Shown piece by piece: positions 1-38,794 of a DNA stretch of 39,818 bases (positions within the stretch are counted from its first letter, which is position 1; the number at the start of each line of letters is the position of its first letter). Origin of the DNA: a virus; the IMG/VR virus record IMGVR_UViG_3300048813_000063, positions 1 through 39,818 of that record. One strand, written 5' to 3'. A program made the translations under genes and the position numbers. The notes beneath the pieces were generated by a model. The model had not been told where the DNA came from, ran no database searches, and saw nothing but the letters and a program-made list of their open reading frames with translations.

Positions 1-90
1 ATCCGGGTGTTCCAGCGACGCGCCTACGGACTGAAGGACGAGGAATACCTCCGCCTCAAGGTCCTCTCTTGCATGCTTCCGGTGCTATGA
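1..90 (+). CDS. IS transposase, C-terminal fragment (ISL3-like), 5' end outside window
   Basis: Only the last 29 codons are present, reading from the window edge to the TGA at 88-90. The tail pattern IxVxQRRAYGLKDEEYLRLKV resembles the C-terminus of ISL3-type (IS204/IS1001/IS1096/IS1165) DDE transposases, where an Arg-x-AYG-x-(R/K) stretch ends the catalytic domain. The stop codon lies 36 bases inside the IS end at 126. The family call is from memory of the tail motif and is moderate; that this is a transposase end inside an IS is better supported, because the next bases form an IS-like terminal repeat that interrupts hsdS. Confidence 0.6.
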   Translation: MRVFQRRAYGLKDEEYLRLKVLSCMLPVL

Positions 91-126
91 TCCGTCAAAA
101 TCACCCACACGATTCACGGAAGACCC
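1..126 (+). mobile_element. Insertion sequence, right end
   Basis: On the minus strand the terminal sequence reads GGGTCTTCCGTGAATCGTGT from 126 inward, resembling the GGxTCTTCxGT...GTGTGGG ends of ISL3-family elements. The transposase stop lies just inside it. The inferred boundary at 126/127 is where hsdS stops matching the internal repeat of the HsdS protein. The left end and any target-site duplication (8 bp is usual for this family) lie outside the window; the flanking bases to look for are those at 127-134, attcgtct. Confidence 0.6.
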
Positions 127-1341
127 ATTCGTCTTAAGGACGTTGAGCTTCCCCACCTGCACGGCGAGCCGAATGTTGAGCGAGGAAAGACAGTCGGCGA
201 TTCGTTGTTGCTCGGCTTTCGCGTCGGGAATGTATACCTCAAGTCGCGACAACTGAGTCGGATAGAGATGAGCGACCGTGTCACCCTGGGCGACCTGGGC
301 GAGTTCCCGACGCCGCGAGCCATTTAGGTAGTAGCTGAAGAAGCGGCCATCAACTGGCGAGCGAATGACATTCAAGTCGCTCCCCAGAGCGACGCCGCCA
401 TGAACGACACAAGCGCAGGTTGCGATGTCCTCTTTGGTTTCACCGGAGGCGGGAATGATCACGTCCCCCGCGTTGCTAAGGACTAAATCGGAAGCAGGAA
501 GGTTGGTTCTCGATTTGACGATTTCGATGATCTCACCGTATGAGGTGTATAGCTCGCCGTATCTGATGCACGGCGTTCGTCCGCCTTCAGCGACATCAGA
601 CTTGGAAATGCCTTTGCCTTTCGATATCTCCGCGATGTCGCCAAGTGCGCACCTTTGCCACTCCACCGCGCTGCGGAACTCGGGGAACCGAAGTCGAGGT
701 CGGGACTCGCCGGGCTGGGGGAAGAGCTGCTGCATCAGCCCTTGCTTGTGCTGCCGCAGGGCTTCGAGCTTCCGGCCCTCCGCCGCGATCAGATCGTCCA
801 GCGAGCCGAGGCAGTCGGCGATCTTCTGCTGCTCGGCGACTTCTGGTAGTGCCAACTCAATCTTTAGAAAATCCGCTTTGTTCAGTACACGGTTTCGTCC
901 AGCACCACCCGGTGAGATCACACCGAGGTTGTAAATGAACTGTTTATCAAGGATCGGATATCGGAAGAACTCAGGTAGTACGGTTTTCCGGTCAAATCGG
1001 TAGGTGGGAAATCGATGCGAGACCAGGGCGCCCGAATCTTCTGGTCGCACAATTGCGATCGCCCCTTCCCATGCGAAAGTGATATTGACTATGAGGTCAT
1101 CGCAATCGACCTCGTAAAGACGCTCCATCGACGTTTTCTCGGGCTGCTCAAGTTCCTTTCGAAATGTGCCCCTTCCATGGCTTCTGATACCTAGGCCTAG
1201 GTATGGAATTGCGGGCTTCTCTCGCTCACGAACGATTGGCGTGAGAAAATCTTCAAACGGCCTTTTCAACCAACCCGGCGTATCCCGAAACTCGGGAAAC
1301 CGCAGATTCGGCACTAAGCGCGACGGCGTGTCGGCTGTCAT
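85..1341 (-). CDS. hsdS: Type I restriction-modification specificity subunit HsdS, C-terminus replaced by IS sequence
   Basis: HsdS is the DNA-recognition subunit of type I enzymes, carrying two target-recognition domains separated by conserved helices. The 418-residue product shows the expected duplication: each half opens with LRFPEFR (around residues 13 and 217), and each ends with an AEQQ(K/R)IADCL helix. The first half closes with HKQGLMQQLFP; the second reads KLNVLKTN and then departs into 13 residues encoded by the IS end, stopping at 85-87. So roughly the last dozen native residues, part of the C-terminal conserved helix, are lost. The start ATG overlaps the hsdR stop by four bases (ATGA), so the two were translationally coupled. 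Sequence recognition may survive, but subunit packing is doubtful. Confidence 0.9.
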   Translation of the reverse strand: MTADTPSRLVPNLRFPEFRDTPGWLKRPFEDFLTPIVREREKPAIPYLGLGIRSHGRGTFRKELEQPEKTSMERLYEVDCDDLIVNITFAWEGAIAIVRPEDSGALVSHRFPTYRFDRKTVLPEFFRYPILDKQFIYNLGVISPGGAGRNRVLNKADFLKIELALPEVAEQQKIADCLGSLDDLIAAEGRKLEALRQHKQGLMQQLFPQPGESRPRLRFPEFRSAVEWQRCALGDIAEISKGKGISKSDVAEGGRTPCIRYGELYTSYGEIIEIVKSRTNLPASDLVLSNAGDVIIPASGETKEDIATCACVVHGGVALGSDLNVIRSPVDGRFFSYYLNGSRRRELAQVAQGDTVAHLYPTQLSRLEVYIPDAKAEQQRIADCLSSLNIRLAVQVGKLNVLKTNGSSVNRVGDFDGS

Positions 1342-4300
1342 CGCGCGCTCCCCTGCTCGTAGGCGTTGAGGCCCGAGATGTCCCGGCCGTGGGCCCGCTT
1401 GTTCAGGAGCGGAACGAGGTCGGCCATCAGAACGAGTTCCCGCTCGCGGCGTTCGCGCCAGCCCAGGCCGAGCGGCTCCATCAGGTCGGTGAGCTGCTCG
1501 CCGTCGAAGATCATGCGCTGGAGGATGGTGTCGACGAAGGCCGCGAGGGCCTCGGTCGTCAAACCGTGGGTCTGGGCGAGCCCCTCGATCTCCTTGGCCT
1601 GCTTTGCGGCCTTGAACCGCTCGTAGCCGGCGCGGATGGCGGCCTCATCGAGGCCTTCGCCCTCCTTGAGCGAGCGGACGTACTCGGTGATCGCCTCCCG
1701 CTCGTCGAGGAACTTGGCGTCGGACTGGATCAGCCCAATGAGCTGCTCGCGGCTGATTGTGAGCTTCTTCGGGTCCTGACCCGAGTACTTGGCGATCAGC
1801 TTCATGATGTAGTCGTAGTCGATGACGGCGGAGGCGAAGAGGACGAACTCGAAGTCGAGCTGGTCGACCTCGGGGTTGGCCGGCTCGCCGTCCCCGCCGG
1901 GCGTGTCCTGCTGCTCCTTGAGGCGCTGGGCGGTTTCGAGGTAGGCGCCGCGGAAGGCGCGGAGGTCGTCCTTGGGGAGGGCCTGCTCGATCTGCTCCCG
2001 CTGCTCTTCGGTGAGGTCGGTGTACTGGTCGAGCTGCGTCTGGAGGCGTTGGACCTCCTTGAAGCGCTTGATGAACTGGGCACGGGCGTCGTCGCCCATG
2101 AGGTTGTTGACTTGATCGGGCGTGGCTTCGAGGCCCTGCGACTGCATGAACGCGCCGAGGTCGGCGACGGCCTGCTTGAAACTGCCGATGACGACGGGCG
2201 CCTTGTCGACCAGCCAGATCTCACGGGCCCGGTCAGCCTGCGCACCAGAGAAGAGCGCGATGGCGGTGTCGACGCTGTCCTGCTGCTGGCGGAAGTCGAG
2301 GATGTTGCCATAGGGCTTGGTCGCGTTGAGGACGCGGTTGGTGCGGGAGAAGGCCTGGACCAAGCCGTGGTGCTTTAGGTTCTTGTCGACGTAGAGCGTG
2401 TTGAGAAACTTTGCGTCGAAGCCGGTGAGGAGCATGTCAACGACGATGGTGATGTCGATCTTTTCCTGGCCCTTGTGGGGCAGGTCGCGGTTGGCGAACT
2501 GCTGATCCTTAATGCGCTGTTGGACGTCCTGGTAGTAGAGATCGAAGTTGTTGATGTCGTCGTTGGTGCCGTACCGCTGGTTGTAGTCGGCGATGATCGC
2601 CTTGAGCGCGGTTTTCTTGCCCTCGGGGTCCTGCCGGTTGTCCTCCTTCTCCTGGGGGAGGTCCTCCTGGAGCTGCTGGACGTCCTTGTTGCCCTCTGCG
2701 GGCGGCGAGAAGACGGCTGCGAACTTCAGAGGGACGAACTCGGGGTCGGCGGCTTGACGCTCGGCCTGGAGCCTCTTGAAGACATCGTAGTATTCGATGG
2801 CGTCGTTGATCGAGGCGGTAGCGAGCAACGCGTTGAAGCGTCGGCCTCCGGTGGCGGCATCGTGCTTATCGAGGATAGCCTGGGCGACCGCCTGCTTGGT
2901 GAGAATCTGGCCGGGCTTGAGGGCAGCGGCGTCCTTGGGTTTGTAATAATCGACGTGGAAACGGAGGACGTTCCGATCCTCGATCGCGTGAGTGATGGTG
3001 TAGGCGTGGAGCTCTTTCTGGAAGAGGTCCTTGGTGGTTCGAAGGGTGGCGACGTCTCCCTCGATCTGCTTGACGGTCGCGTTGTCCTCAAAAATCGGGG
3101 TGCCAGTGAAGCCGAAGAGCTGGGAGTTCGGGAAGAACTCCTTGATAGCCTTGTGGGTTTCGCCGAACTGCGACCGATGGCACTCATCGAAGATGAAGAC
3201 CATCCGCTTGTCTTGGAGCTGTTCGAGCCGCTGCTTGAACGTTGACCGCCCCTGAGCGACGTTCTGCTTGTTGTGCTTGCTGTTCTCGTCGAGGGCGAGC
3301 CCGAGCTTCTGGATGGTCGTGACGATAACCTTGTCCGCGTAGTCGTCGGACTCGAGCCGGCGGACAAGCGCCGCGGTGTTGGTGTTTTGCTCGACGCAGT
3401 TCTCTTGGAACCGGTTGAACTCCTCGCGGGTCTGGCGGTCGAGGTCCTTGCGGTCGACGACGAAGAGGCACTTGTGGATGTTCTCGTTGGTCTTGAGGAG
3501 CGTCGAGGCTTTGAATGAGGTGAGCGTTTTGCCCGAGCCGGTCGTGTGCCAGATATATCCGTTGCCGCAGTTCTGATCGATGCAATCGACAATCGCCTTC
3601 ACTGCGTAGATCTGGTACGGGCGCATCATCAGGAGCTTCTGCTCACTGGCGATGAGGACCATGTACCTGCTGATCATCTCGCCAAGCGTGCACTTGGCGA
3701 GGAAGCGATCGGCGAAGTCGTCGAGGTAAGTGATCTTCGTGTTGTCCTCGGCCGCGAACTGGTAGATCGGAAGGAACCGCTCGTCCGCGTCGAAGGCGAA
3801 GTGCCGCGCGTTGTTGTTGGCGAAGTACCACGTGTCCGTGCGGTTGCTGACGATGAAGAGCTGGACGAAGCAGAGAAGCGTCTTGGTGTATCCGTTACCG
3901 GGGTCGTTCTTGTAGTCGACGATCTGCTCCATCGCCCGCCGAGGGCTGATCCCAAGCGTCTTTAGCTCGATCTGAACGACGGGGACGCCGTTGATCAGGA
4001 GTATGACGTCGTAGCGGTGATGGCTGTTGTCCGTATTGATGCGGAGCTGATTGATGACCTCGAAGGCGTTCTTGCACCAATCCTTGATGTTGACGAGGGT
4101 GTAGTTGAGCGGCGTGCCGTCGTCGCGGACGAAGGCTTCCCGGTTCCGGAGAGACTGGGCGGCTTCGTAGACGTCCGGTGTCACGATCTCGTCGAGGAGT
4201 CGCTGGAACTCGCCGTCGGTGAGTGTGACACGATTCAGGGCTTCGAATTTTTCCCTGAAGTTTGCTTCAAGCGTGGTTCGATCGCGGATGTCGGAGCGAT

Positions 4301-4373
4301 ATTCATACTTGAGGTCCCGTAGCTTTGCGACAAGCGACTCTTCAAGTTTGCGCTCGGCTGTGATCATCGGCAT
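1338..4373 (-). CDS. hsdR: Type I restriction enzyme motor/endonuclease subunit HsdR
   Basis: This 1011-residue protein is the ATP-dependent translocase and nuclease of a type I system, close to the usual length (about 1000-1050) of EcoR124-type subunits. The N-terminal RecB-like nuclease has Asp122, Glu136-Leu-Lys138 and a downstream QxxxY motif at 150-154. The SF2 helicase core follows: Walker A GSGKT at 279-283, DECH at 396-399, FTGTP near 422, and the LLTGFDAKFLNTLYVDK and QAFSRTNR motifs near 690-720. A coiled, acidic C-terminal region would contact the methylase core. The reading frame and motifs look intact. Without HsdM no M2S core can form, so the subunit is probably idle; it would cut only if an HsdM from another locus substitutes. 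Confidence 0.96.
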   Translation of the reverse strand: MPMITAERKLEESLVAKLRDLKYEYRSDIRDRTTLEANFREKFEALNRVTLTDGEFQRLLDEIVTPDVYEAAQSLRNREAFVRDDGTPLNYTLVNIKDWCKNAFEVINQLRINTDNSHHRYDVILLINGVPVVQIELKTLGISPRRAMEQIVDYKNDPGNGYTKTLLCFVQLFIVSNRTDTWYFANNNARHFAFDADERFLPIYQFAAEDNTKITYLDDFADRFLAKCTLGEMISRYMVLIASEQKLLMMRPYQIYAVKAIVDCIDQNCGNGYIWHTTGSGKTLTSFKASTLLKTNENIHKCLFVVDRKDLDRQTREEFNRFQENCVEQNTNTAALVRRLESDDYADKVIVTTIQKLGLALDENSKHNKQNVAQGRSTFKQRLEQLQDKRMVFIFDECHRSQFGETHKAIKEFFPNSQLFGFTGTPIFEDNATVKQIEGDVATLRTTKDLFQKELHAYTITHAIEDRNVLRFHVDYYKPKDAAALKPGQILTKQAVAQAILDKHDAATGGRRFNALLATASINDAIEYYDVFKRLQAERQAADPEFVPLKFAAVFSPPAEGNKDVQQLQEDLPQEKEDNRQDPEGKKTALKAIIADYNQRYGTNDDINNFDLYYQDVQQRIKDQQFANRDLPHKGQEKIDITIVVDMLLTGFDAKFLNTLYVDKNLKHHGLVQAFSRTNRVLNATKPYGNILDFRQQQDSVDTAIALFSGAQADRAREIWLVDKAPVVIGSFKQAVADLGAFMQSQGLEATPDQVNNLMGDDARAQFIKRFKEVQRLQTQLDQYTDLTEEQREQIEQALPKDDLRAFRGAYLETAQRLKEQQDTPGGDGEPANPEVDQLDFEFVLFASAVIDYDYIMKLIAKYSGQDPKKLTISREQLIGLIQSDAKFLDEREAITEYVRSLKEGEGLDEAAIRAGYERFKAAKQAKEIEGLAQTHGLTTEALAAFVDTILQRMIFDGEQLTDLMEPLGLGWRERRERELVLMADLVPLLNKRAHGRDISGLNAYEQGSAR

Positions 4374-32126: not shown

Positions 32127-33845
32127 TTAGCCTCCGACAATTAACAAGCCGCGGCCATCGGCGTAAATGCCCGACTCCTCCGCCATCGAGCGGCCCACCG
32201 CCATGATCACCGCGACGATCGGATCGATGCGCTCGATCGAGCGTTCCTTGTCCGGCTTCACGTTGCCGGCGGGGTCAGTTCGGATCGACACATTCGAGGC
32301 GCACCAGTCGGCCACCGGATCGGCGCCGTGCTGCAGTTCGCGCGCCAGCACCTTGCGCATGAATTCCGCTGCCGCCGGCCCCATGCTGAGGAAACCCTGG
32401 CCGAACTCGACCAGGTTCATGCCCTCGTCGGCGAGGTTGCGGATGATCTCACCGGCGAACGTGCGGTCGAACGCCAGCTCTTCGATGTTGTAGACTGCGG
32501 ACAATTCGAGGATCGCCGCCTCGACAAACTTGAAATCGGTCGTGTTGCCTTCGGTCGCGATCAGGTGGCCTTGGTCGCGCCAGACCAGGTAGGGCGCGCG
32601 GTCCCGCCTCGATCGCTCTTCGATGTTGTCGGCCGGGCACCAATGGCGCCACAGCACTTTCCAACGCTCGCCGTCACTCAGCGGCGGGAACAGCAGCGCC
32701 AGCGACGACAGGTCGTTGATCCGCGCCAGGTCAAGCCCGGCGAAACACCTGCGCCCCCGTAGCGCCTCGGCGTCGATCGGCTCGGCCCCGTCCGCCCAGA
32801 CCTCCATCGGAATCCAGCGCACGAGCTGCTGCGTCCACTGGTTGAGCCGCAAGCGCCGGATGGAGTTCTGCCGCGACGGCATCTCCAGCGCGAGCGCCAC
32901 CTCGGCGCGCAGGTCCTCCATTTGCAGCACCGAACCGAGCGAGGGGTTCGCCTTGCGCCATGCCAGTTCGTCTTGCCAGTCGTCGCCCTCGTCGACGGTC
33001 GCGATGAAGGCGAACCATCGGTCGGCGGTCACCTGCGGAATGACCCCGTCCAGGATTTTCACCGAAAAGTCCCAGTGCAGGTAACAGACTGACGTGCGGC
33101 TTACCCCCGCCGTGGTCGTCTCGTACATCAACGGCTGAAGCCGCGCGCCCATGCCGGTGTCGAGTTTCTCGATCACGCCGGCATCGGGATGCTCGTGCAG
33201 CTCGTCCACCAGCGCGACGAAGACGTTCAAGCCGTCCATCTTCGACGTGTCGGCCGAGAGCGGCCGGAACCACGATGCCGTGGAAAGCACCGCGAGGTTG
33301 TTCGTCGTCTTCACGATCCGGCGGCGCAGCGCGGGCGAACCGGCCCGCATGCGCTCGGCCTCGGAGAACACGATCCGGGCCTGCTCGCGCGTCGTCGCGG
33401 CCGAGTAGATTTCCGCGCCCGGCTCGTTTTCGTCGATCAGCGCCTTCAAGCCGATGCCGGCCTCGATGGTCGATTTGCCGTTCTTCCGCGCCGTGGACAC
33501 GAACGCCGTGCGAAACCGCCTGACCTCGATCTTCTTGTCCGGCAGCCAGAGCTTCCAGCCGAAGATCGAGCCGACGACAAACTGTTCCCAATCCAGCAGA
33601 TCGAATGGCTTCCCGGCATACTGCCCCTTGCTGTGGCGCAGGACGGCCGGGAAGAAGTCGATCGCGCGCTGGGCGGTGGCGCGGTCCCAGCGCAAGTCGC
33701 GCGCCGGGCCGTCAACCAGATCGCGCAGGTGGCGCTCGCAGGCGAGGCGAACCAGGCGCCCCGTGACGAGCTGGTTGCCGACAACCGCCCTGGCATACGC
33801 CTCTACCGGGTCCTGCGGCTCCGCCGGCCGCTTACGCCCTGCCAC
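32127..33845 (-). CDS. Terminase large subunit (HK97-type)
   Basis: The 572-residue protein is the packaging motor and nuclease. The N-terminal ATPase shows LVRLACERHLRDL, FELLDWEQF-like segment (KPFDLLDWEQFVVGSIFGW), the Walker A variant STARKNGKST (about 117-126) and Walker B VFVALVDELHEH (about 207-219). The nuclease half opens with AGLDLARINDLSSLALLF, carrying the first catalytic Asp, and ends with ERIDPIVAVIMAVGRSM. The frame extends upstream to 33887; GTG 33845 was preferred because family members start near here. The C-terminal end (YADGRGLLIVGG) is the family's usual end, so the gene is complete. Confidence 0.93.
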   Translation of the reverse strand: MAGRKRPAEPQDPVEAYARAVVGNQLVTGRLVRLACERHLRDLVDGPARDLRWDRATAQRAIDFFPAVLRHSKGQYAGKPFDLLDWEQFVVGSIFGWKLWLPDKKIEVRRFRTAFVSTARKNGKSTIEAGIGLKALIDENEPGAEIYSAATTREQARIVFSEAERMRAGSPALRRRIVKTTNNLAVLSTASWFRPLSADTSKMDGLNVFVALVDELHEHPDAGVIEKLDTGMGARLQPLMYETTTAGVSRTSVCYLHWDFSVKILDGVIPQVTADRWFAFIATVDEGDDWQDELAWRKANPSLGSVLQMEDLRAEVALALEMPSRQNSIRRLRLNQWTQQLVRWIPMEVWADGAEPIDAEALRGRRCFAGLDLARINDLSSLALLFPPLSDGERWKVLWRHWCPADNIEERSRRDRAPYLVWRDQGHLIATEGNTTDFKFVEAAILELSAVYNIEELAFDRTFAGEIIRNLADEGMNLVEFGQGFLSMGPAAAEFMRKVLARELQHGADPVADWCASNVSIRTDPAGNVKPDKERSIERIDPIVAVIMAVGRSMAEESGIYADGRGLLIVGG

Positions 33846-34296
33846 GCAAGAAGTCTTCGGCCGCGTCGGCGTCTCCCGGCGCGTCACCCGCCTTGATACG
33901 CGAGCGCGCTGAACCCGACAGGCCGATTTGCTCCGACATCTGGCGCACCTGGTCGAGCGCCTTGTTGGCGATCGAGAGATAGGGCGACTGCATCGGGAAA
34001 CCGTTCGCTGCCTTGATGATAAGGCCGGTGGTCACGAGTTGCCGCTCCGCCTCGACATACCGCGCCCAGGCTTGGCAGTAGCCGGCGATGACAGCGCGAT
34101 CGAGCTTGGCGATCAGGCCCACCTCGGCCAGCAGCAGCGTGATGCGGCGCCACTCCGCCAGCGCCTCGTCTTTCAGAATCTCAGGCGGGTCCGGGATCAC
34201 CGTCCGCGGCTTCGCCTCGTGTTCGTTGAGCGGTCGGTGTCCGGGGTTGCCGGTGACCAGCTTCAAGACCGTGGCCTTCGGCTTAGCCCCGCGCAT
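33832..34296 (-). CDS. Terminase small subunit (P27 family)
   Basis: A 154-residue protein opening MRGAKPKATVLKLVTGNPGHRPLNEHEAKP, the hallmark of P27-type small terminases (xLxxGNPGxRPLN). The helical part IPDPPEILKDEALAEWRRITLLLAEVGLIAKLDRAVIAGYCQAWARYVEAE and SPYLSIANKALDQVRQMSEQIGLSGSARSRI is also standard. It binds the packaging site. GGAGG lies six bases upstream of its ATG. Its stop lies inside the large-subunit start, and its start overlaps the ParB-domain gene's end. Confidence 0.93.
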   Translation of the reverse strand: MRGAKPKATVLKLVTGNPGHRPLNEHEAKPRTVIPDPPEILKDEALAEWRRITLLLAEVGLIAKLDRAVIAGYCQAWARYVEAERQLVTTGLIIKAANGFPMQSPYLSIANKALDQVRQMSEQIGLSGSARSRIKAGDAPGDADAAEDFLRGRA

Positions 34297-34978
34297 CGGC
34301 TTCCTCCGTGTCGGTAGCCCCGCGCGCTGCCTCTTCCTCGGCGAGCGCTTTCCCAGCCAGCTCGGCCATCATCCTCAGCGCGACGGCGGTGTTGTGGACG
34401 CCGGTCGAGTGCTTCACCGCGAGCAATCCCTGAAAAAACCGATCGAAGTCCGCATAGGCCCCGACCAGGCGGGTGATCGCGGCCTTGGATTTGGCGATCT
34501 TGTCCAGCCACCCCATGAAGATCGCCGCGTCGGCCGGCAGAAAGGAGATTTGCAGCTCCTCATAGAAGGGATTGCCGACGCGCAGCACAGAGGTATCGAG
34601 GTCCTCGACCTTGAACGCATCGTCGGTCAGGCCGGAATACTCCTTCCAGCCGAAACTCAGCTCCGCATAGAGCGACTGCAAGATGTTCGGATCGTCCTCG
34701 CCGACGACGGCGTTGTGCGCCAGTTGCAGCGCGACGAATTGCTCTCGGGTCAGCGGCGTCAGGATTTCCATGACATCCGCTTCCTCAATGCCCGCCTTCA
34801 TCGCCGCCGGCACGCGATGGTTGCCCGACGCCACCAGCAGCTTGCCGTCCACATGGCCGACCAGCGGAACGCTGGTGAGACAGCCATCCGCCTTGATGTT
34901 CGCGACCAGCCGGGCGAAGGTCGCCCCCCTCATAAACCGGGCGTTCTTTTCAAGCAGCGTCAGGTCGGCGAGCCGCAT
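34283..34978 (-). CDS. ParB/Srx-fold domain protein, probable partner in phage DNA modification
   Basis: A 231-residue protein opening MRLADLTLLEKNARFM, with DGCLTSVPLVGHVDGKLLVASGNHRVPAAMKAGI at about 25-60, which is the ParB/sulfiredoxin N-terminal domain (NxR, then S/GNHRxxA). Its remaining 170 residues are helical (EQFVALQLAHNAVVGEDDPNILQSLYAELSF) and unlike chromosomal ParB. Genes of this type often accompany Mom-like or base-modifying genes in phages; here the partner overlaps it upstream by 29 bases. Proposed roles for such domains include nucleotide kinase or nuclease activity; none can be chosen from sequence. An upstream ATG at 35062 would add 28 residues. It sits just before the terminase genes. 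Confidence 0.82.
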   Translation of the reverse strand: MRLADLTLLEKNARFMRGATFARLVANIKADGCLTSVPLVGHVDGKLLVASGNHRVPAAMKAGIEEADVMEILTPLTREQFVALQLAHNAVVGEDDPNILQSLYAELSFGWKEYSGLTDDAFKVEDLDTSVLRVGNPFYEELQISFLPADAAIFMGWLDKIAKSKAAITRLVGAYADFDRFFQGLLAVKHSTGVHNTAVALRMMAELAGKALAEEEAARGATDTEEADARG

Positions 34979-36278
34979 CCGTGTGACGCGCGTTTGCAAC
35001 GAACCGTTGGAACCACTCGGTGTAGATTTCTCCGGGAGTTTGGCGTCTGATCTTGCTGCCATAGTTCAATATCCCAGGGCCACGGCCCAACAATTCGAAG
35101 ATGCCGCGGTACTTCATGGACACCGGCCTCGACGTGAAGGCCGTGGTCATCACTGAGTCGATCCGCTGCACCAGCCTGATCGCCATGCGGTCAGTGATCG
35201 TCGCCGAGGTCGCCAGCATGGCGATCAGCTTCGACACCCGGCTCCGCGGCGACAGCGCAAAATCGGACAGCAGGTAAAGGAGGTCCCCGCCCCACTTGTC
35301 GCGGGAGTAGATGAAGCCGCCGGCCAGGTGGCCGTCGATCATCACCAGGAAGTTCGCGAGGCCGGCGGTGTGCGTGATCCCCTTCGCCAGATAGATGTCC
35401 TTCAGGAAGTTCATCTGCGCCGACGTTGCGGTGACGATCTCCACCTTCGACGCCGGGGTCAGCGCCGCCGGATCGAGCTTGGTGTAGCGGAACGGTTCGG
35501 ATCGATGCAGCGCGCGCCGCACTGAGCTGGCAGACCTGTCCGCGAAGGTAAAGACCGGCTTGTTCGACTCCCCGCGATAGACGGTCACCGGCTCATGTCG
35601 TTCGAGCGTGTGGTCGGTCAGCACGCAATACCGCACCCGCATCGCGTCCAGCTCATCCAGCCACGCCTCCAGCGCGGCAGGGTCCCAGACACCGTAGGAC
35701 GGCCGTGGCCAGTCGGTGTTTTGATCCACGAAGCGATACAGCCGCTCATACCCGTTCTTGTAGGTAGGCGGGAATGCGGCGACCCCGCCCCCGACCTCGG
35801 CGGCTCGCTTCGCCTGCTCCCGAAAGTCGCCGGGATGGAAGCTCGCGATGTGCAGCCCTTCGAGGAAGGCTTCGAGCCGCTTCCAGACCGGCGCCAGAAA
35901 CTCGACAAACCGTTCCTCGTAGTGCGCAAAGTGCGCCTGGGCATAAGGGTTGGTGCCCTTGTATTTCGCCATCTCTAGCGCGACCTCGACCGCCGCGGCG
36001 CGCGCTGTGAAGGGTTGGCCGGCGATCAGCGGCTCAATGAAGGCGAGGCGACCCTTGAATGCGATCGGGAACTCGGCGCCGGTGGCGAGGGCACCCAGCG
36101 AGCAGGACAGCAGCGAGACATCGTTCGAATGAACGGCGACGGTCGGGTGAACGTCCCGCACCGCGCGGTCGAACCGGAACGACCCGGAGCATCCGACGAA
36201 GACCTGGCGCCAATCGGTGAACGGAACAGAGCGCGTGATCTGCTCGACAGCAGGGCGCGGAACAGCTCCGACGAACAT
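34950..36278 (-). CDS. Mom-like DNA-modification protein with N-terminal methyltransferase-like domain
   Basis: The 442-residue protein has two parts. Residues 20-230 look like a D12/Dam-type methyltransferase relic: VFVGCSGSF (28-33), HSNDVSLLS (50-58) and FPPTYKNGYERLY (169-181), where a DPPY would be expected. Residues 290-400 resemble Mom-like acetyltransferases of the family annotated in phages as putative antirestriction adenine methyltransferase/Mom: LYLLSDFALSPRSRVSKLIAMLATSATI and FTSRPVSMKYRGIFELLGR. Mu Mom modifies adenines to a carbamoylmethyl form and blocks host restriction. It is the first gene of the late block. The fused form is a recognised phage family, but its exact base product is not known to me. 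Confidence 0.8.
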   Translation of the reverse strand: MFVGAVPRPAVEQITRSVPFTDWRQVFVGCSGSFRFDRAVRDVHPTVAVHSNDVSLLSCSLGALATGAEFPIAFKGRLAFIEPLIAGQPFTARAAAVEVALEMAKYKGTNPYAQAHFAHYEERFVEFLAPVWKRLEAFLEGLHIASFHPGDFREQAKRAAEVGGGVAAFPPTYKNGYERLYRFVDQNTDWPRPSYGVWDPAALEAWLDELDAMRVRYCVLTDHTLERHEPVTVYRGESNKPVFTFADRSASSVRRALHRSEPFRYTKLDPAALTPASKVEIVTATSAQMNFLKDIYLAKGITHTAGLANFLVMIDGHLAGGFIYSRDKWGGDLLYLLSDFALSPRSRVSKLIAMLATSATITDRMAIRLVQRIDSVMTTAFTSRPVSMKYRGIFELLGRGPGILNYGSKIRRQTPGEIYTEWFQRFVANARHTDAARRPDAA

Positions 36279-36387
36279 GGGCTAGACGCCCACTGCAACG
36301 TCAATGGAATCATGCTGGATTAGACTTAGAAGTTCGTCAAAGACGTAGGAAATAACTGCAACTTTCAGTGTCATTCGTGACCGGCCT

Positions 36388-36402
36388 GTGCTAGGATAGC
36401 AC
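36388..36402. promoter_or_regulatory. Palindromic operator candidate in the divergent intergenic region
   Basis: GTGCTA-GGA-TAGCAC is a perfect 6-base inverted repeat with a 3-base centre, about 35 bases before the plus-strand gene at 36437. Its centre forms TAGGAT, a possible -10 hexamer, so a bound repressor would block transcription. No clear -35 is visible at 17 bases. No repressor gene is in the window. Confidence 0.45.
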
Positions 36403-36436
36403 CGTCTAAAACGGCTTTCGCGAAGGGACGATTTCC

Positions 36437-37042
36437 ATGCCGGCGCTGCCTCTCATCAAAACTGCGTCGTGGGCAACCAAACTCCCTGACGATCATCTGC
36501 GCGTCGGCATTTCGCGTGGCACGCCGCGCCGGCTGCCGGCCGGTTACCGCGTCTTCCGCTCGCTCGCACCAGGGCCTTGGTTCAACAGCGTCGGGATCGA
36601 GGAGTACTACCGCCTTTATCGAACCGAGATCCTCGGGCGTCTCGACCCCAGGCTCGTGGCCGACGCACTGCTTGGCCTCGCCGGCGGCCGGGTTCCGGTC
36701 CTGCTCTGCTACGAACAGCCGATCCCCGGCCAGTGGTGTCACCGCGCGATGGCGGCGGAATGGCTCGCCGAGGCCCTCGGCGTAACCGTGCCGGAGTTCG
36801 GGTTTGAGGCGCTGCCGCAGCACGAGCATCCCCTGATGCCCCCGCAGCTTCGGCGCGTCATCGCCTCGACCGCCACGCCTGACGTTGGACCCTTCACCGG
36901 CCGCACAGCGACGATCGCCGGCGAGTTGCACCGCGTGGTCGGACCCGACCCCGAGAAGCCCGGCATGGCAATCATCGCCGCCGGTGACAGACAATTCTCC
37001 ACCGGCATCGAGACCCTGCGCCGCCAGTTCGGCAAACCGTGA
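36437..37042 (+). CDS. DUF488 family protein
   Basis: A 201-residue protein with RVGISRGTPRRLPAGYRVFRSLAPGPWFN, YYRLYRTEILGRLDPRLVADAL and VPVLLCYEQPIPGQWCHRAMAAEWLAEALG. The LLCYE...WCHR motif is the core of the DUF488 family, small proteins of unknown function often found in phages and near defence or repair genes. Cys114 and Cys123-His124 are the conserved residues. The ATG at 36437 has AAGGGA about nine bases upstream. The C-terminal 60 residues are unrecognised. Its stop overlaps a possible tiny downstream gene by four bases. Confidence 0.8.
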   Translation: MPALPLIKTASWATKLPDDHLRVGISRGTPRRLPAGYRVFRSLAPGPWFNSVGIEEYYRLYRTEILGRLDPRLVADALLGLAGGRVPVLLCYEQPIPGQWCHRAMAAEWLAEALGVTVPEFGFEALPQHEHPLMPPQLRRVIASTATPDVGPFTGRTATIAGELHRVVGPDPEKPGMAIIAAGDRQFSTGIETLRRQFGKP

Positions 37043-37990: not shown

Positions 37991-38794
37991 ATGTCTGACA
38001 CCACCAGGACCGCCGGCCGCACCCAAGCGGAACGGCGCGCCGATCGCCAGGACCGGATCGACGGCAGAGCCGATCGCCTCCGGGACGAGGCCTCCGCGCA
38101 ACTCCGCCGCGCAGACCAAATCTCCGAGCGGTTCGCCGGAGGCCAACCCATCCTGGTTGGCCACCACTCCGAGCGCGGCGCACGGCGCGATCATGCGAGG
38201 ATGGACACCGCGATGCGCAAAGGTGTCGCTCTCAGCCGCGAGGCCGCGGCGGTCGCATCTGTCACGCCGTCAACCGCCGTGCTGGCGACCGACTCAGACG
38301 GCCCCGAGATCATGCAGGCCCGCATCGAGAAGGCGTTGACGCTCCAGGCCCGCATGAAGGCGGCCAATGTCGCCGCCCGCAAAGGCGACCGCGTTGCGCT
38401 CGCGGCGCAGGGCTTCGACCCTCCCCAGATCGAGGAACTGCTCACCCCGCAATGGGGCAACGGCCGCGGCCCGATAGGCTTCCCCAGCTACGCGCTGTCG
38501 AACAACAGCGCCAACATCCGACGCATGCGCGAGCGGCTGGCGGAACTGCGACGCGCCCAGACGATGACACCCACAGAGCGCACCGTCGGCGACGTGCGGG
38601 TGGTCGAAGACCCCGAGGCCATGCGGATCAGGCTGCACTTTCCCGGCAAGCCGACGCCGGCGGTGATCGCCACGCTCAAGTCCAACGGATTCCGCTGGGC
38701 ACCGTCCGAGCGTGCTTGGCAGCGGCAACTGACCCCGGCCGGCCGTATGGGCGCCGATTTGGTGCTCGGTTTCATCAAGATGTCGGGAGGCTGA
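37991..38794 (+). CDS. DUF3560 domain protein
   Basis: The 267-residue product starts MSDTTRTAGRTQAERRADRQDRID; the coiled basic N-terminus (RADRLRDEASAQLRRADQI) and GQPILVGHHSERGARRDHARMDTAMRKGV are the hallmark of DUF3560 proteins found in plasmids and phages. Its C-terminal part (residues 195-265) carries VEDPEAMRIRLHFPGKPTPAVIATLKSNGFRWAPSERAWQRQL, typical of the same family. Function unknown; often near replication or conjugation genes. GGAGG lies nine bases upstream of the ATG. Confidence 0.82.
   Translation: MSDTTRTAGRTQAERRADRQDRIDGRADRLRDEASAQLRRADQISERFAGGQPILVGHHSERGARRDHARMDTAMRKGVALSREAAAVASVTPSTAVLATDSDGPEIMQARIEKALTLQARMKAANVAARKGDRVALAAQGFDPPQIEELLTPQWGNGRGPIGFPSYALSNNSANIRRMRERLAELRRAQTMTPTERTVGDVRVVEDPEAMRIRLHFPGKPTPAVIATLKSNGFRWAPSERAWQRQLTPAGRMGADLVLGFIKMSGG

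Follow-up and report, generated by a model that had tools for sequence, protein, structure and literature searches.

Locus organization

What do two overlapping genes at the head of a viral late block do, and on what substrate do they act? We addressed this question in an IMG/VR virus record of 39,818 bases, analyzed over its whole length (hereafter, the window), which encodes a contractile-tail sheath protein. A sequence-only reading had described the two genes, here called A and B, as a DNA hypermodification pair, in which A is a Mom-like acetyltransferase fused to a degenerate Dam-type methyltransferase and B is a ParB/Srx-domain protein. Both open reading frames lie on the minus strand where that reading had placed them, overlap by 113 nt, and precede the co-oriented genes for the small and large terminase subunits (TerS and TerL). 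On its other side, A is separated by an intergenic region from a divergent DUF488-N3-like gene; no sigma-70-like consensus was found in that region. Coordinates and supporting evidence for all features are given in Table 1.

Table 1. Features of the cassette and its surroundings (window coordinates unless a locus is named)
Feature	Position	Strand	Evidence
Gene A, DAM-like Rossmann and GNAT fusion, 442 aa	34950..36278	-	PF22555 and PF22559, phrog_7858; AlphaFold2 mean pLDDT 92.2
DAM-like domain of A, residues 2-260	35499..36275	-	PF22555; Rossmann-type strand/helix order; dN/dS 0.06-0.13
Motif I-like SAM-site loop of A, VFVGCSGSF, residues 26-34	36177..36203	-	Gly32 invariant
Asp53 of A, end of strand beta-2	36120..36122	-	Invariant across the two clades; sits where the SAM-ribose acid usually lies
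Altered motif IV of A, FPPTY, residues 169-173	35760..35774	-	Sequence; intein-like insertions here in three relatives
GNAT-phage-like domain of A, residues 277-425	35004..35450	-	PF22559, E 8.4e-39; Foldseek matches to GNAT acetyltransferases
SMKYR signature in GNAT domain, residues 387-391	35106..35120	-	Arg391 ~99% conserved, both clades
Gene B, ParB/Srx-fold protein, 259 aa	34283..35062	-	phrog_7405; fold search; ParB-structure profile matches, best E 7.7e-5
ParB/Srx nucleotide-binding box II of B, SGNHR, residues 79-83	34814..34828	-	S79, G80 and R83 invariant; H82 at least 90% conserved
DUF488-N3-like gene, divergent from A	36437..37042	+	PF22751, 25.8 bits; invariant C91 and C101-H102-R103; linkage
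Divergent intergenic region, A/DUF488	36279..36436	.	Between the two genes
Terminase small subunit (TerS)	33832..34296	-	PF05119, phrog_83
Terminase large subunit (TerL)	32127..33887	-	PF03354, PF20441, phrog_9
A genes with intein-like insertion, three distant relatives	L086:4542-6713, L111:6657-8804, L157:6594-8783		Insertion at motif IV

Gene A carries a constrained DAM-like domain

Gene A is a member of phrog_7858 and matches two Pfam families in order, DAM-like-phage1 (PF22555; E 1.8e-42, 145.9 bits) and GNAT-phage-like (PF22559; 133.4 bits), both above the curated cut-off of 27. Searches of solved structures by sequence, with A, an A profile, and the DUF488 protein as queries, gave no useful match. 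An AlphaFold2 model of A has a Rossmann-type order in its N-terminal half, and Foldseek searches with this model returned Rossmann methyltransferases for the N-terminal part and GNAT enzymes for the C-terminal part. In the model, Gly32 follows strand beta-1 in a glycine loop and Asp53 closes strand beta-2, so that the two residues are predicted to sit as they do in SAM sites. The profile match, the fold, the glycine loop, and the beta-2 acid together uphold the DAM-like assignment. The amino-methyltransferase motif (D/N/S)PP(Y/F/W) is absent from A, which reads FPPT; the PPTY previously noted in place of DPPY is indeed present.

The description of this domain as degenerate fared less well. Measured against eight close relatives, dN/dS of the DAM-like part is ~0.06-0.13, purifying selection acts on both domains of A, and the altered signature is common to relatives in many phyla. 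Strong purifying selection on the altered motif IV throughout a very diverse family makes the term misleading, and dN/dS together with family-wide conservation rules out a decaying remnant. We also considered an amidoligase link for A, raised by the top BFVD match and by phrog_2443, and rejected it. Genome-search matches to phrog_2443 fall nearly all in positions ~130-450, whereas A aligns only to positions ~642-761; the label therefore does not carry over to A.

The GNAT domain of A lies outside the Mom family

An acetyltransferase-type domain in A is borne out by PF22559 and by many Foldseek matches to GNAT enzymes (e.g., 2ae6, with a target-normalised TM of 0.54). The R/QxxGxG/A acyl-CoA loop is absent; A has SPRSRVSKL in its place, and relatives are similar, with (R/K)LSKL forms. 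The Tyr of the SMKYR signature is not retained in the sister clade described below.

By contrast, the label "Mom-like" finds no support beyond the common GNAT fold, as the domain belongs to PF22559 and not to the Mom family, PF25680. No match to PF25680 was found in the window at E<=1, while Mu Mom itself scores 253 bits. Alignment of A to the Mom profile with hhalign gave a probability of 0.2-0.5%, against a profile that is shallow. Mom was absent from the top 50 PDB fold matches of the A model and appeared only at rank 42, among generic GNATs, in a BFVD fold search. On the basis of these Pfam, hhalign, and fold-search results, we rejected membership of A in the Mom family.

Gene B has a ParB/Srx fold

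Gene B matches phrog_7405 (4.3e-58) and several ParB-like phrogs, and its ParB domain matches phrog_498, a family of ParB-containing DNA methyltransferases. The AlphaFold2 model of B (pLDDT 85) resembles ParB, Noc, and sulfiredoxin structures, and the protein carries the G-x-(H/R)-R box of this fold. Together with the ParB-structure profile matches, these results confirm that the partner of A is a ParB/Srx-domain protein. Pfam detected no HTH_ParB domain in B, and its known neighbours in the window are A and TerS. ParB-fold proteins bind CTP, ATP, or GTP, and fusions of this fold include an acetyltransferase fusion with GTP and a DUF488-HTH fusion with CTP (PMC12704722).

The part of B that overlaps A (window 34949-35062) corresponds to its first ~38 codons. 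In the frame of B, dN/dS is 1.06-1.49 within the overlap versus 0.08-0.11 over the rest of the gene. A ratio above 1 makes the start of B doubtful; judging from this pattern, Met1 may be annotated too far upstream, with Met29 as the true start.

A, B, and a DUF488 gene form a conserved triad

We gathered relatives of A from viral and genome contigs, down to ~24% identity, and their record titles span roughly ten or more bacterial phyla. Throughout this family the DAM-like and GNAT domains are joined in a single polypeptide. B lies directly after A in >200 homologous loci, far beyond chance, and does so in essentially all loci with enough sequence. The clade that includes the window (clade II) has 159 distinct loci in which the sequence continues for at least 700 bases beyond A, and in 153 of these B passes a strict filter for adjacency. 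The exceptions comprise three loci in which B has a long ORF start (L126, L134, and L154), one in which B precedes A (L169), and two with a truncated A and no B (L131 and L135). In the sister clade (clade I), B is present in 58 of 61. From this near-universal adjacency we infer that A and B almost certainly work together.

The DUF488 gene is a third member of the set. Its product falls just short of the Pfam cut-off of 27 for PF22751, a family matched by 33 of 40 relatives of the gene (E<=0.01). With a profile built from the window gene, 128 loci bearing A proved to encode a homologue, which usually lies no more than a few hundred bases upstream of that gene and is either divergent or co-directional. 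Where enough upstream sequence is available, the homologue is on the locus in 42 of 46 clade I cases; of 139 clade II loci whose upstream flank reaches at least 1 kb, 87 have it within 2.5 kb and 52 lack it nearby. The earlier notion of a pair holds for A and B and is incomplete as a description of the whole set, because the DUF488 gene is conserved with A.

Cultured phages show the same linkage. Among 50,697 INPHARED records, A, B, and the A-linked DUF488 subfamily, the only one that this search reaches, occur in exactly the same 16 (8 Mycobacterium, 5 Gordonia, 2 Faecalibacterium, and 1 Microbacterium), which represent about four lineages and hence not 16 independent events. In ValentiniPuff, A is gene 1 and the DUF488 gene lies at the far end of the record, such that the two adjoin if the ends join. 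Isolated phages carrying the cassette include Jeon, Taptic, Jollymon, and FP_Brigit.

Motif IV differs between two clades and receives intein-like insertions

A tree of the A family splits clade I exactly from clade II, with low support (0.27) at the split. Residues 169-172 in 68 non-redundant clade II proteins are mostly F/Y/S-x-P-T/F; none has D or N at the first position, and one reads SPPT. In the sister clade, of which FP_Brigit and ValentiniPuff are typical members, 50 of 61 proteins have NPPT, 4 have APPT, and 7 show no simple match; motif I of this clade (EPCAG) is closer to that of Dam enzymes. Conserved at ~97-100% in both clades are Gly32, Asp53, Pro171, Glu178, Gly320, Thr378, Arg391, and Tyr406.

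Three distant relatives carry insertions of ~285 residues exactly between FPP(T/F) and GYE. Each starts with Cys, ends with His-Asn, and is followed by Ser or Thr, which are hallmarks of inteins; as Pfam gave no intein match to the insertions at E<=0.01, we call them intein-like on these hallmarks. Inteins favour essential active-site motifs. Since the insertions sit exactly at motif IV, the FPPT...GYE motif of A is probably functional.

The cassette usually precedes terminases of unrelated families

The usual place of the cassette is just before the terminases, which belong to many unrelated families: in 88 loci a TerL-cluster gene is found no more than 4.5 kb downstream of B, and in 78 of these the distance is within 1 kb. 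Two phages, Jeon (Mycobacterium) and Jollymon (Gordonia), have an intact cassette away from the terminase, which makes the link positional, not obligate. Two TerL genes near the cassette have additional domains, a homing-endonuclease domain in one (L146:11482-14256) and an intein splicing domain in the other (L156:10080-11939). One Deltaproteobacteria locus has a DUF5131 (PF07505) gene downstream of its cassette (L119:12047-13429), and a DUF5131 match also occurs among upstream neighbours.

Some sister-clade loci encode a phage SAM synthetase 2-5 kb upstream. It was found in 8 of 23 sister-clade loci with >3.4 kb of upstream sequence in a first set and in 6 of 39 in a wider non-redundant set, in which shorter flanks hide some; L098 is the only clade II locus with one. 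In phage Phi1207.3, a SAM synthetase (orf29), a ParB-DNA methylase (orf32), and a C5 methylase (orf33) are followed by TerS (orf38) and TerL (orf39) (PMC4260502). On positional grounds, this order is the chief reason to propose that the cassette modifies DNA.

Proposed function

We propose that DUF488, A, and B constitute a mobile, late-expressed cassette for covalent modification of phage DNA by acyl-type chemistry, and we put the probability of this reading at about 0.5. It builds on what the sequences show: the domain content, a triad conserved as a unit, a location ahead of diverse terminases, and purifying selection. A DNA-modification role for the genes that lead the late block, as first suggested, remains the best reading, with the DNA substrate itself inferred, as are the acyl chemistry, the use of SAM and of an NTP, and the protective role. 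The DAM-like domain of A would bind DNA and the target base, probably with SAM or a relative, and the GNAT domain, or the GNAT domain together with the SAM site, would attach an acyl-type group. B would act as an NTP-dependent partner of the ParB/Srx type, loading A onto DNA, positioning it there, or licensing it, and DUF488 would contribute an auxiliary reaction, for instance by producing or removing an intermediate. Modification would occur late and near packaging; the modified DNA would then be packaged and would be better protected on entry to a new host. Several findings weigh against parts of this proposal: (i) the clade of the window lacks the catalytic Asp/Asn of amino-methyltransferases; (ii) A lacks the canonical acyl-CoA loop, and the SMKYR Tyr is not kept in the sister clade; and (iii) DUF488 is missing near A in more than a third of the clade II loci assessed, and SAM synthetase occurs in a single clade II locus.

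One subset of the acyl-type reading is that the GNAT domain acylates SAM and a base in DNA then receives the altered group from the DAM-like domain, with NTP hydrolysis by B and the action of DUF488 as further steps. GNAT-fold homoserine-lactone synthases offer a comparison for GNAT acylation of SAM, and motif IV of A no longer suits simple amino-methylation. We regard this specific route as a long shot. The abstract of Iyer et al. 2013 reportedly predicts phage systems that use modified SAM derivatives, and part of the cassette may already have been predicted there.

The substrate could instead be a protein. The GNAT domain would then acetylate a terminase, a host polymerase, or a nucleoid protein, with the DAM-like domain as a dead DNA-binding scaffold, in the service of packaging or host takeover and not of DNA modification. 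The lack of (D/N)PPY in the clade of the window fits this idea, as do the RimI- and RimL-type protein acetyltransferases among the fold matches of A and the prediction that phage GNATs modify host proteins (PMC5512222; PMC7824862). We nevertheless consider it unlikely: the SAM-site signature (Gly32 and Asp53) and motif IV are conserved and constrained, the sister clade retains NPPT, SAM synthetase neighbours occur, and the terminase families beside the cassette are too diverse for one conserved protein substrate. A role within the packaging machinery, with B clamping the packaging site in the manner of ParB and with either A or DUF488 marking or regulating that site for terminase, would account for the frequent TerL genes downstream of B and for its ParB/Srx fold. 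Such a role is hard to reconcile with the intact cassettes of Jeon and Jollymon away from the terminase, with adjacent terminases that are unrelated to each other, and with the lack of a detected ParB HTH domain in B, and seems quite improbable to us.

We likewise give little credence to the idea that A simply methylates adenine at N6 or cytosine at N4, by way of an unusual motif IV and with the GNAT domain as an accessory. Its DAM-like family membership, NPPT in the sister clade, and SAM synthetase near some members point that way, but D/N is absent from the motif in all 68 clade II proteins, four sister-clade members have APPT, and the GNAT domain is a constant feature of the family. That A is a Mom-family enzyme with N6-methylcarbamoyl-adenine as its product is very improbable. 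The two proteins share the GNAT superfamily, and A has a late position like that of Mu mom; against this stand the PF25680, hhalign (shallow Mom profile), and PDB and BFVD fold-search results given above, and the annotated neighbourhood of Mu Mom is without a DAM-like, ParB, or DUF488 partner.

Relation to known systems

Gene A is a full-length member of PF22555, PF22559, and phrog_7858. Its domains are therefore already catalogued in Pfam, under names without tested function, and phrog_7858 is listed as of unknown function. Mu Mom (PF25680; structure 8bv8, a methylcarbamoylase) is a late phage gene tied to DNA modification, as we propose for A; it has no sequence or profile match to A, which differs in its N-terminal DAM-like domain and its conserved ParB and DUF488 partners. 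The nearest functional parallel to the cassette is Phi1207.3, whose orf32, like members of phrog_498, combines a ParB domain with a DNA-modifying enzyme. It lies ahead of the genes for TerS and TerL and, as in some sister-clade loci, near a phage SAM synthetase. In such ParB-DNA methylases, however, the ParB domain is fused to the methylase, whereas here it is a separate gene whose partner joins DAM-like and GNAT domains and has a changed motif IV. With the ParB/Srx (ParB-CTPase fold) superfamily, B has in common the fold and the SGNHR nucleotide-binding box; it differs in having no detected ParB HTH and in standing beside a predicted modification enzyme. The third gene shares the C-x-E ... 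CHR signature of DUF488 families (PF04343; PF22751, the Active DUF488-N3 subclade), but belongs to a phage subfamily that is tied to A-B; the window member scores just under the Pfam cut-off.

Our literature search found no experimental study of A, B, or the triad, and no paper describing the triad. Phage eta was considered as a modified-base lead and set aside, as its paper reports no modified bases. What appears to be new here is the conservation of the triad and the exact match in distribution of its members among cultured phages, together with the division of A into two motif clades and the intein-like insertions. If our proposal is true, the cassette would be a widespread multi-enzyme phage DNA-modification system found, according to record titles, in ~ten or more bacterial phyla, and four vaguely named families (DAM-like-phage1, GNAT-phage-like, phrog_7405, and DUF488-N3) would become one testable unit. 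There is a real chance of new chemistry; a new base would bear on phage escape from restriction and would provide a new DNA-labelling enzyme. Because isolated phages of Mycobacterium smegmatis mc2 155 and Gordonia carry the cassette, virion DNA can be measured without building anything.

Other features of the window

Type I restriction genes occupy window 85-4373 on the minus strand, with an HsdS-like specificity subunit (85-1341) and a full-length HsdR (1338-4373); no HsdM was identified within the window. These genes sit directly after the tail genes and could be phage cargo or host flank. At the left end, window 1-90 (plus strand) encodes the fragment IRVFQRRAYGLKDEEYLRLKVLSCMLPVL, followed by a stop. 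We take this fragment to resemble a transposase C-terminus, which suggests a mobile element or host junction there. At window 37991-38794 (plus strand) lies a gene for a DUF3560 protein that also matches a phage primase phrog (19458).
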